34,575 nucleotides of DNA from Cecembia sp. GTDB lineage: Bacteria; Bacteroidota; Bacteroidia; Cytophagales; Cyclobacteriaceae. Of this stretch, positions 28,912-31,784 are shown piece after piece. Both the position numbers and the translations under genes were made by a program. Position 1 is the stretch's first letter. Each line of letters starts with the position of its first letter. The stretch is taken from positions 1 through 34,575 of the forward strand of contig NZ_SLAP01000159.1 of NCBI RefSeq assembly GCF_007126775.1, given 5' to 3'. The notes beneath the pieces are model-generated. The model was not told where the DNA came from. It saw only the letters and a list, made by a program, of their open reading frames with translations, and ran no database searches.

Positions 28912-29820
28912 AGGCAGGGATAAGCCAAACCTTTCATTGAACCCGGCAACACCCTGTATACCGCCGGTATGCAGGAGCAGGATTTTGGATCCTTTTGGGA
29001 AATATTTTTTTTGGACAAGCTTCAGCACGCCATAGGCCATTTTTCCAGTATATATGGGTTCCAAAGGAATTTGAAAAGTAAGGTAAAACCAGCGTATAAA
29101 ATCCAAAAGTTCTGCTGTGTGTTTACCATAACCTCCAAAATGATAATTGTTTAGGATTTTGGTTTTACCATGGGTTTCAATTTGAAATTTTTTCAGCTGC
29201 CCGTCGATTTCCTGATGGATGAAGCTGCCTTTAAGTGCTGAAAATCCCAGTAATTCCTGATGGTGAAGGAGGCTGTTGGCCAATCCGAGAAAAGTACCCC
29301 CAGTGCCTAAAGGGGTACATATATGGGAGAAATCCTTATCTTCATTACTTAGGATTTCTGAGGTACCTTTGATAGCCAAATAGTTGGTCCCACCTTCAGG
29401 GATGAGGTAAAAATTGCCATAAATTTCCCGAAGTTCATCGATGAATTTAGGGCTTTCTTTGTCTCTATAGGCACTTCGGCTGATATAATGAAGACTCATT
29501 CCTTTTTCTTTTGCTGCATTAAGCGTGGGATTGATGGGAAAGGTCTCTTCGCCTCTGATCACGCCAACCGTTTGAAATCCTTCTTGTTCAGCAGCAGCTG
29601 CCGTGGCATAAATATGGTTAGAATAGGCCCCTCCAAATGTCAACAGCTTGTTTTTTCCTTCCTTTTTTGCCTGTTCAAGGTTGTACTTGAGTTTGAAAAA
29701 TTTATTACCGGAAGCAAGCGGGTGAATCTGATCCAGGCGTTTGATGGCAAGCTGCACTCCCTGAATTTCCCATAATTCATAAGAGAGCTTTTCCACGGAT
29801 ATCTGATTGGGGATGAGCAT
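28906..29820 (-). CDS. PLP-dependent ACC deaminase/D-cysteine desulfhydrase-like enzyme
   Basis: This 304-residue tryptophan-synthase-beta-type PLP enzyme has the substrate and cofactor loop PLASGNKFFKLKYNL (34-48), with Lys43 as the likely Schiff-base residue by analogy to ACC deaminase, then LLTFGGAYSNHIYATAAAA for carboxylate binding. THICTPLGTGGTF is the phosphate-binding region. Members cleave ACC or D-cysteine, producing ammonia and a keto acid. The sequence cannot separate the two activities; the D-cysteine desulfhydrase type is the more general guess. It is monocistronic and divergent from the RluA-family gene. Confidence 0.9.
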   Translation of the reverse strand: MLIPNQISVEKLSYELWEIQGVQLAIKRLDQIHPLASGNKFFKLKYNLEQAKKEGKNKLLTFGGAYSNHIYATAAAAEQEGFQTVGVIRGEETFPINPTLNAAKEKGMSLHYISRSAYRDKESPKFIDELREIYGNFYLIPEGGTNYLAIKGTSEILSNEDKDFSHICTPLGTGGTFLGLANSLLHHQELLGFSALKGSFIHQEIDGQLKKFQIETHGKTKILNNYHFGGYGKHTAELLDFIRWFYLTFQIPLEPIYTGKMAYGVLKLVQKKYFPKGSKILLLHTGGIQGVAGFNERFGLSLPL

Positions 29821-29881
29821 ATATTCCTTCTATTGTTATACAAATATCAAAAACTTTGGCAAATGCCCTTATTTTTGTGTT

Positions 29882-30925
29882 ATGGTATCAGATTTGGAAA
29901 ATGGCAATTTTGAAGAAGAGGAAGAAATAGAGCTTTTCGAACATTTTAGCTTTACAGTAGATAAAGGGCAGACATTGACAAGGATCGATAAGTTCCTGAC
30001 CGATAAAGTAGCCAATGCTACCCGAAATAAAGTCCAGCAAAGTATAGATTCGGGGAATGTACTGGTCAATGGTAAACCCACCAAATCAAACTATAAGATC
30101 AAGCCCTTTGATGAAATCAAGATATTTCTAGAAAAGCCTGTCAGAAATACAGAAGTATTGGCTGAACCCATTCCTTTGGATATTGTCTATGAAGATGATT
30201 ACCTCATGGTTTTGAATAAGCCAGCCGGGATGGTAGTTCATCCCGCCCATGGCAACTGGACCGGAACATTGGTAAATGGACTGGTGTATTATTTCAATCA
30301 GTTGCCCACCTTACCAGGAAATTCAGGAAGGCCTGGGCTGGTCCATCGCATTGATAAGGATACCTCTGGTTTGTTGGTGGTAGCCAAATCGGAGATAGCC
30401 ATGACTGATCTTGCTAACCAATTTTTTCACCATCAAATAGAGCGCACCTATATTGCCATGGTATGGGGAGAGCCATCCGAGGATAAAGGGACCATTGTGG
30501 CTCATGTGGGAAGGAGTGCCAAAGACCGAAAGGTAATGGATGCTTTTCCTGATGGTTCCTACGGGAAGCATGCTGTTACCCATTGGAAAGTTCTCAAAAG
30601 GTTGCGCTACGTCAGTTTGTTACAATGTAACCTCGAAACAGGAAGGACCCATCAGATAAGGGCACACATGAAATTCATGGGACATCCCCTGTTCAACGAT
30701 GCCATGTATGGTGGAGATAAAATCCGCAAGGGAACCCAATTTGCAAAATATAAAACCTTTGTTCACAATTGTTTTCAAATCATGCCCAGGCAGGCTTTGC
30801 ATGCCATGTCCTTGGGTTTTATTCATCCAATCAGTAAAGAAAAGATTTTCTTTGAAACGCCATTACCCGAAGATTTTGCATCTGTCCTTGAAAAATGGGA
30901 GAATTATGTCAACTTCGAAAAGTGA
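29882..30925 (+). CDS. RluA-family pseudouridine synthase (RluD-like)
   Basis: This 347-residue enzyme has an N-terminal S4 RNA-binding domain (about residues 33-95, RIDKFLTDKVANATRNKVQQ) and a catalytic domain with HRIDKDTSGLLVVAK (155-169), where Asp158 is the catalytic residue, and GRTHQIRAHM further on. It isomerises uridines in 23S rRNA; by domain order and length it is closest to RluD. I chose the ATG at 29882, because the frame extending to 29807 adds 25 unrelated residues overlapping the divergent gene. An acidic run EEEEEIELFE follows the start, as in other Bacteroidota homologues. Confidence 0.93.
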   Translation: MVSDLENGNFEEEEEIELFEHFSFTVDKGQTLTRIDKFLTDKVANATRNKVQQSIDSGNVLVNGKPTKSNYKIKPFDEIKIFLEKPVRNTEVLAEPIPLDIVYEDDYLMVLNKPAGMVVHPAHGNWTGTLVNGLVYYFNQLPTLPGNSGRPGLVHRIDKDTSGLLVVAKSEIAMTDLANQFFHHQIERTYIAMVWGEPSEDKGTIVAHVGRSAKDRKVMDAFPDGSYGKHAVTHWKVLKRLRYVSLLQCNLETGRTHQIRAHMKFMGHPLFNDAMYGGDKIRKGTQFAKYKTFVHNCFQIMPRQALHAMSLGFIHPISKEKIFFETPLPEDFASVLEKWENYVNFEK

Positions 30926-31199: not shown

Positions 31200-31256
31200 T
31201 GTAGGATTAAAAATCAGGAAAGCTAAGCTATGAAGGTTCGAATCCTTCTCCTACAA
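31200..31256 (+). ncRNA. Miniature tRNA-like RNA lacking D and anticodon arms
   Basis: TGTAGGA (31200-31206) pairs fully with TCCTACA (31249-31255). GAAGG-TTCGAAT-CCTTC (31232-31248) makes a perfect 5-bp T arm with a canonical T loop, and A31256 stands in the discriminator position. Only 25 unpaired bases replace the D, anticodon and variable arms; CCA is not encoded. Acceptor stem and T arm match the longer unit at 31585-31708 almost base for base, with one T-stem change that keeps pairing. A promoter and a strong terminator (31288-31319) flank it. It could be an internally deleted pseudogene or a short non-translating RNA. Confidence 0.5.
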
Positions 31257-31287: not shown

Positions 31288-31319
31288 AAGCTGTGAAATT
31301 TTGTTTCACAGCTTTTTTT
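31288..31319 (+). terminator. Intrinsic terminator after the short tRNA-like unit
   Basis: AAGCTGTGAAA (31288-31298) pairs with TTTCACAGCTT (31304-31314) in a perfect 11-bp stem with a 5-base loop, followed by a T run. Confidence 0.9.
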
Positions 31320-31545
31320 ATGTCCAGTGCTATCCTGTATCATAGGGATTGAATCAATAAATCTGAAATGGTAAGTGAAAAATTTGTTCATCAAAACTAA
31401 GAAAAATCGATTGCGAAATTTTTAATGATAACCTAAAAATCTGGACATCTATTTTTTAAAATACAATTAAAATAGTATTTTTATAAAAAATATGTAAAAA
31501 AAATACCAATTGTTTAAAAAAATTTTAAAAAATGAATCCCTTTAT

Positions 31546-31553
31546 TAATTTTG
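31546..31553 (+). promoter_or_regulatory. -7-like element upstream of the long tRNA-like unit
   Basis: TAATTTTG matches the TAnnTTTG consensus exactly. Transcription from here would add about 25 bases of 5' leader before the acceptor stem. No well-spaced -33 TTG is seen. Confidence 0.35.
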
Positions 31554-31584: not shown

Positions 31585-31708
31585 TGTAGGATGTTGAAAC
31601 TGGCAGACAAGCCCTCCTGTCTCGGGGGTGGAGATCCGGGGATAAAGCGCACCAAGAGCTCTGGTGTTGCCTAACTGCTCCGTGGAGGTTCGAATCCTTC
31701 TCCTACAG
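31585..31708 (+). tRNA. Aberrant Leu-type tRNA with GUC anticodon and enlarged variable arm
   Basis: The 124 bases fold as a tRNA. The acceptor is TGTAGGA/TCCTACA; the D arm TTG-AAACTGGCAGA-CAA has a Leu-type loop. The anticodon stem CCCTC/GGGGG encloses CTGTCTC, so T33 is followed by GTC (Asp) with T at 37. The T arm is GGAGG-TTCGAAT-CCTTC and the discriminator is G; CCA is not encoded. The variable region runs from about 31635 to 31683 and is closed by GGAG/CTCC. It contains a further hairpin CACCA/TGGTG, far larger than the normal 10-20 bases. Leu-like D loop, Asp anticodon and G discriminator conflict, so ordinary decoding is unlikely. Its own terminator follows. Confidence 0.55.
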
Positions 31709-31738
31709 CAAATAATTGGCTTAAAATTAGTCAAAAAG

Positions 31739-31784
31739 GCAAATTGTTACGTTCAATACAGGGATGTTACAGTTTGCTTTTTTT
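31739..31784 (+). terminator. Intrinsic terminator after the long tRNA-like unit
   Basis: GCAAATTGTTAC (31739-31750) pairs with GTTACAGTTTGC (31766-31777) with one mismatch and one G-U pair, followed by seven T residues. Confidence 0.75.

Follow-up and report, generated by a model that had tools for sequence, protein, structure and literature searches.

A tRNA-Leu-like RNA family of Bacteroidota with aspartate and GatCAB determinants, a candidate carrier for asparagine synthesis

What is the role of an RNA that combines the body of a tRNA-Leu with the anticodon of a tRNA-Asp? Such an RNA is encoded at positions 31585-31708 of Cecembia sp. contig NZ_SLAP01000159.1, the whole 34,575 nucleotides of which were analysed and are referred to here as the window. 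Its flanking genes are a pseudouridine synthase gene (29807-30925) and, on the other side, a large open reading frame whose relative has no Pfam match. A sequence-only reading of this locus had described a cloverleaf with a Leu-like D arm, a GUC anticodon, U at position 37, a G discriminator and a CACCA/TGGTG hairpin, and our re-reading of 31585-31708(+) bears that description out. The acceptor stem has 7 bp, the variable domain is of type II and the elbow is normal, with GG in the D loop and UUCGA in the T loop. The features of the locus are as follows.

31200-31256, + strand: mini copy with the same acceptor and T arm as the full copy, without D and anticodon arms, discriminator A
31288-31321, + strand: terminator of the mini copy
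31546-31553, + strand: TAATTTTG, a consensus match to the Bacteroidota -7 box TAnnTTTG
31585-31708, + strand: full-copy tRNA-like RNA, from the acceptor 5' strand to discriminator G73 (sequence, homologues, covariation)
31585-31591, + strand: acceptor stem 5' strand UGUAGGA (U1, G2), pairing with 31701-31707
31594-31610, + strand: D arm with stem UUG/CAA and Leu-like loop AAACUGGCAGA; the stem covaries (A-U/U-A/G-C)
31612-31628, + strand: anticodon arm CCCUC-CUGUCUC-GGGGG; the stem covaries
31619-31621, + strand: anticodon GUC, followed by U at 37 and by C38 at 31623
31630-31681, + strand: enlarged variable domain; outer and inner stems covary
31630-31633 and 31678-31681, + strand: outer stem of the variable domain, GGAG/CUCC
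31640-31646 and 31671-31675, + strand: internal loop of the variable domain, GGAUAAA/CUAAC, a motif conserved in the family
31650-31654 and 31662-31666, + strand: hairpin CACCA/UGGUG of the variable domain, with the inner stem GC/GC
31684-31700, + strand: T arm GGAGG-UUCGAAU-CCUUC; covariation
31701-31708, + strand: acceptor stem 3' strand UCCUACA and discriminator G73 (G73 in 177/177 members)
31733-31783, + strand: intrinsic-terminator-like hairpin and T run (MFE -21 kcal/mol, z = -6.0)

ARAGORN reported no tRNA and no tmRNA in the window, Rfam 15 gave no family match at the gathering score for either short or long forms of the RNA, and only chance matches appeared in Rfam at E<=10. Since the annotation tools used here missed it, the RNA is probably unannotated wherever it is present. 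Its single-sequence fold was no better than those of shuffled sequences (z = 0.13) and is thus uninformative, so that the case for the RNA rests on comparison.

Homologues were found by blastn in 44 of 59 related genomes, with 1-6 matches each and often in tandem. The Cecembia sp. genome itself carries three full copies, two of them 90% identical and in tandem on another contig, besides a large ordinary tRNA set that includes two tRNA-Asp(GUC) and four tRNA-Leu genes. An alignment of 24 members, the basis of our covariance model, had 96.7% standard pair cells and 61 double changes, compared with 24.5 in shuffles. Among 51 distinct divergent homologues, some of them from another class of the phylum, 96.1% of cells pair and there are 213 double changes (63.7 when shuffled); covariation extends to every stem (acceptor, D, anticodon, outer variable, inner variable and T). 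Homologues with conserved pairing in the variable domain, one of the checks suggested for this locus, were thus found. The same reading had considered a diverging pseudogene; compensatory changes and invariant functional positions across the phylum refute this.

A strict-pattern scan of 84,980 species genomes yielded at least 80 loci. Among the matches listed, all are titled Bacteroidota, and the record titles comprise Cyclobacteriaceae, genera of Spirosomaceae, Flammeovirgaceae, Saprospiraceae and Chitinophagaceae. In a survey of 392 Bacteroidota genomes, members scored at least 72 bits with lengths of 107-185 nt, while ordinary tRNA-Leu scored at most 61 bits at about 84 nt. The RNA is thus a structured family that is widespread across several orders of Bacteroidota. 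No published description of the family was found in the literature searched, in which subscription journals were covered incompletely, and an earlier description is possible. The variable domain ranges from about 35 to 110 nt and consists of the outer stem, the conserved internal loop and an inner stem whose length differs widely; an extra motif, GGGUUGACCACYAA, is present in many members.

The conserved positions of the family indicate what the RNA is kept for. Among the 177 distinct members, G2-C71, U35, C36, C38 and G73 are invariant, U1-A72 occurs in 176 and G34 in 171, the other six having C, A or U at position 34. G73, G34, U35, C36 and C38 are the five strong determinants of aspartate identity (PMC9976931), so that 171-177 of the 177 members carry each element of the set expected for a pathway of AspRS and GatCAB. 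The U1-A72 pair confers GatCAB amidation of Asp-tRNA, whereas G1-C72 and U20a act against it (PMC9976931); all members but one have the former pair. E. coli AspRS is, however, helped by G1-C72 (PMC9976931), and charging of the RNA by AspRS could be weak because this pair is replaced by U1-A72 and G10 is replaced in most members. Position 33, by contrast with these determinants, is T in 139 members, G in 27, A in 7 and C in 4, while position 37 is T in 164, C in 9 and G in 4, and never A. The family accordingly lacks the conserved U33 and purine 37 of elongator tRNAs, and the presence of all four bases at 33, together with the lack of A at 37, indicates that decoding is not under selection: determinants for aspartate and GatCAB are kept in the family and decoding features are not. 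The suggestion that the RNA serves a non-translational purpose is well supported by its conservation as a family, by the loss of U33 and purine 37 and by its own terminator, which had also been claimed and corresponds to the hairpin at 31733-31783 (z = -6.0).

The scaffold sequence is nearest to tRNA-Leu, and tRNA-Leu(GAG) gave the top score among the canonical tRNAs compared. Bacterial leucine identity nevertheless requires A73 (PMC9976931), whereas every member has G73 and nearly all have the complete strong aspartate set, which leaves the earlier view of a Leu-charged RNA unsupported. Serine identity calls for G73, C72, C11-G24 and a long variable arm; the family has A72 throughout, and its 11-24 pair is U-A or C-G depending on lineage. 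Leucylation and serylation of the RNA were both set aside on these identity rules.

We propose that the RNA is probably a dedicated, non-decoding carrier, derived from a tRNA of the Leu type, on which AspRS and GatCAB make asparagine and so replace asparagine synthetase. In the course of charging, amidation, asparagine release and regulation that we infer, the RNA would have a promoter of its own, in many cases controlled by an Lrp/AsnC regulator encoded divergently, and its transcript would be trimmed like a tRNA. Ordinary AspRS would attach aspartate by reading G34, U35, C36, C38 and G73; an aspartate anticodon on a dedicated carrier would mean that the normal enzyme could perform this first step. 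GatCAB would then recognise U1-A72 and amidate Asp-RNA to Asn-RNA, which would be kept off the ribosome and remain unused at Asp codons because U33 and purine 37 are not maintained. Hydrolysis would finally release asparagine for AsnRS and metabolism.

The gene neighbourhood has one recurrent element. A divergent Lrp/AsnC regulator gene (about 154 aa) is the nearest upstream gene in 38 of 80 named loci among the matches listed, usually 110-245 nt away, and an Lrp/AsnC gene stands beside the RNA in 25/38 loci from other family groups, including another class. Genes beyond the regulator and downstream of the RNA vary by lineage. The link to the regulator is absent in about half of the named loci, for example in Algoriphagus, Saprospiraceae and the Cecembia window, and no transferase gene was a constant neighbour of the RNA in the loci examined. 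In E. coli, asnC and asnA are divergent genes, and AsnC, cited as a local regulator, activates asnA (PMC8707732); there too an Lrp/AsnC regulator diverges from an asparagine-making gene, but in the loci described here the partner is an RNA and not an enzyme. A TAnnTTTG box lies no more than 70 nt upstream of the RNA in 73 of 156 members, as against 4% of shuffles. Between this box and the RNA, a conserved 5' leader with a small, apparently covarying hairpin (AAGAC-AAAAG-GTCTT) can also be seen, e.g., in L115, L080 and L073.

We searched a panel of 80 genomes for GatB, GlnRS, AsnRS, AsnA, TIGR01536 and the E. coli-type AsnB protein (NF006949), with GatCAB presence scored by GatB alone. GatB is present in all RNA-positive genomes of the panel. 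Among same-class genomes with both GlnRS and AsnRS, it was found in 36/36 RNA-positive and 0/21 RNA-negative genomes (Fisher 5e-16), and E. coli-type AsnB was found in 0/41 RNA-positive compared with 16/22 RNA-negative genomes of the class (Fisher 2e-10), both values overstating independence since the panel genomes are related. Genomes with GlnRS and AsnRS have no translational need for GatCAB. The only same-class genome with GatB but without the RNA (G099) has no GlnRS and therefore needs GatCAB anyway. In families f22 (G060, G179, G401) and f23 (G075, G172) the RNA and GatB are jointly absent from the genomes named, while the other panel members of both families have the two together. The Cecembia sp. 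assembly, which is 92% complete, was counted as RNA-positive but stands outside the 36, with neither AsnRS nor GlnRS detectable; its congener G001 has both.

Other asparagine synthetases gave a less simple picture. TIGR01536 alone was dropped as a means of separating the genomes, since it is matched by long AsnB-like proteins throughout; the separation appears with the E. coli-type protein. These longer AsnB-like proteins, present in most RNA-positive genomes, are of unproven function, and some could make asparagine. The Cecembia sp. protein above the TIGR01536 cut-off adjoins a polysaccharide-type glycosyltransferase; its score for asparagine synthase B is 192, where the cut-off is 499. In six RNA-positive genomes (G372, G206, G433, G304, G046, G324) neither AsnA nor TIGR01536 matched above the cut-off, and AsnA also occurs in three (G328, G222, G218). 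The last observation would suit a role as an aminoacyl donor, in which the Asp-charged and perhaps amidated RNA passes its amino acid to a lipid, peptide or cell-wall precursor, like the non-proteogenic tRNA-Gly of Staphylococcus, and no free asparagine is formed, since it implies that the RNA need not always supply free asparagine; the identity pattern and the loss of decoding would be the same. We consider such a donor unlikely, as the recurrent neighbour is an Lrp/AsnC regulator instead of a transferase, and the absence of E. coli-type AsnB from RNA-positive genomes would be left unexplained.

A regulatory RNA seems rather improbable, whether it would bind AspRS and/or GatCAB or be charged just to sense aspartate and asparagine supply, with the divergent Lrp/AsnC protein as its partner. 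The divergent gene and the long structured variable domain with its conserved internal loop would fit this role, and tRNA-like structures in mRNAs that bind AspRS or ThrRS are known (PMC9976931). In same-class genomes where GatCAB has no other tRNA substrate, however, it is kept only alongside the RNA, and sensing alone would not explain the retention of a catalytic amidotransferase.

We give a similarly low chance to the possibility that the substrate of GatCAB is ordinary tRNA-Asn, charged by a non-discriminating AspRS as in Bdellovibrio, and that the RNA has an unrelated role. This route would leave the matched gain and loss of the RNA and GatCAB unexplained, and the RNA has the exact determinants for AspRS and GatCAB. 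The N-terminal anticodon-binding region of AspRS, with the RDLGG site that we take to be a marker of discrimination, is also alike in RNA-positive and RNA-negative genomes of one family (RDLGG in G137, G316 and G060), a weak lead in the same direction. In its favour, tRNA-Asn here likewise begins with U1, and this route has been given as an explanation or prediction for 18 genera, Bdellovibrio among them, in which AsnRS, GlnRS and GatCAB occur without asparagine synthetase (PMC4206432). Four genomes of other classes (G071, G072, G088, G150) contain GlnRS, AsnRS and GatB but no RNA detectable even with a second model, and might rely on a non-discriminating AspRS. A broader model, R2, found only matches of ordinary tRNA-Leu size in 40 RNA-negative genomes, plus an aberrant 76-nt copy in G048. 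This relative (L281 / L218) has the loop CUAUCUC, no long variable arm and no Lrp gene nearby; its genome has AsnA.

A cloverleaf with a GUC anticodon and a normal elbow could also belong to a further decoding tRNA, of Asp or Leu/Ser isotype, or to a tRNA gene in decay, but both are very improbable given all four bases at 33, a pyrimidine or G at 37, two ordinary tRNA-Asp genes already present, the need of leucine identity for A73 and, unlike in decay, pairing kept by compensatory change.

The dedicated carrier that we favour has partial parallels in known systems. Asparagine is known to be made on ordinary tRNA-Asn (PMC4206432), and in Deinococcus, Thermus and Bdellovibrio this pathway places aspartate, as proposed here, on an RNA with U1-A72 and G73 for amidation by GatCAB. 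It occurs in organisms that have AsnRS, sometimes GlnRS, and no AsnA/AsnB. Their carrier, however, is the decoding tRNA-Asn (GUU), which requires a non-discriminating AspRS, whereas the RNA described here is separate and non-decoding, has the anticodon GUC and does not keep U33 or purine 37. What sets the proposed pathway apart is a dedicated non-decoding carrier with an aspartate anticodon. With tRNA-Leu and other type II tRNAs the RNA shares the D arm, elbow and long-variable-arm architecture, but differs from tRNA-Leu in G73, U1-A72, the aspartate anticodon, the conserved internal loop of the variable domain and the lack of a conserved U33 or A37. The non-proteogenic tRNA-Gly of Staphylococcus is aminoacylated and kept out of translation as a peptidoglycan donor; it similarly carries an amino acid outside translation, but is of normal tRNA size and has no amidation step, while the RNA here is enlarged and amidation is proposed. 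tRNA mimicry outside decoding is also found in the tRNA-like structures of aaRS mRNAs, bacterial Y RNAs (YrlA) and tmRNA, from all of which the RNA differs as a stand-alone gene with a full cloverleaf, no mRNA context and no Rfam match. We identified no tag reading frame of the tmRNA type, and in place of a permuted tRNA domain there are full D and anticodon arms.

The 18 genera in which Alperstein et al. noted AsnRS, GlnRS and GatCAB without any asparagine synthetase include some Bacteroidetes (PMC4206432). For the Bacteroidota among these, the RNA offers a concrete and testable answer. If it is correct, an RNA would serve intermediary metabolism instead of translation, as an "RNA coenzyme", relic-like or invented anew, in a metabolism that handles amino acids on tRNA, and predictions of asparagine auxotrophy would be altered for many environmental genomes. 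We lean, if only slightly, towards the wider view that a stand-alone RNA evolved here into a reusable carrier for a free amino acid, such that AspRS, GatCAB and a non-decoding tRNA mimic replace a protein synthetase under AsnC-type regulation, and that large phages carry their own copy.

The RNA core was found on 53 viral contigs of up to 326 kb (IMG/VR, L224-L276). Some of the phage copies (e.g., L238, L244) belong to arrays with as many as 25 tRNAs, tRNA-Asp and tRNA-Asn among them, and one array also has a tmRNA; the same stretches contain phage genes such as RNA ligase/tail fibre attachment, DNA ligase and endolysin-like genes. No Lrp gene was seen beside the RNA in the stretches of viral contigs examined. 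Directly after the GACCAC motif, phage copies carry perfect palindromes of 8-10 nt, of many different sequences (8.9 compared with 4.3 +- 0.46 when shuffled), which suggests that these copies may pair with themselves. Dimerisation through variable-arm palindromes as a property of the whole family was rejected, given that the palindromes stand out clearly in phage copies alone, with a weak signal in short bacterial forms and none in long ones.

Two further observations concern variants of the RNA. In the Spirosomaceae members L067, L077, L078, L104, L110 and L143, pair 51-63 of the T stem is mismatched (U.C or C.C), in a region relevant to EF-Tu binding. Mini copies like that at 31200-31256, with acceptor and T arm only, U1-A72 and discriminator A or U, also occur in L007, L008, L086 and L112; in several genomes of the Cyclobacteriaceae type they precede a full copy by a few hundred nt.
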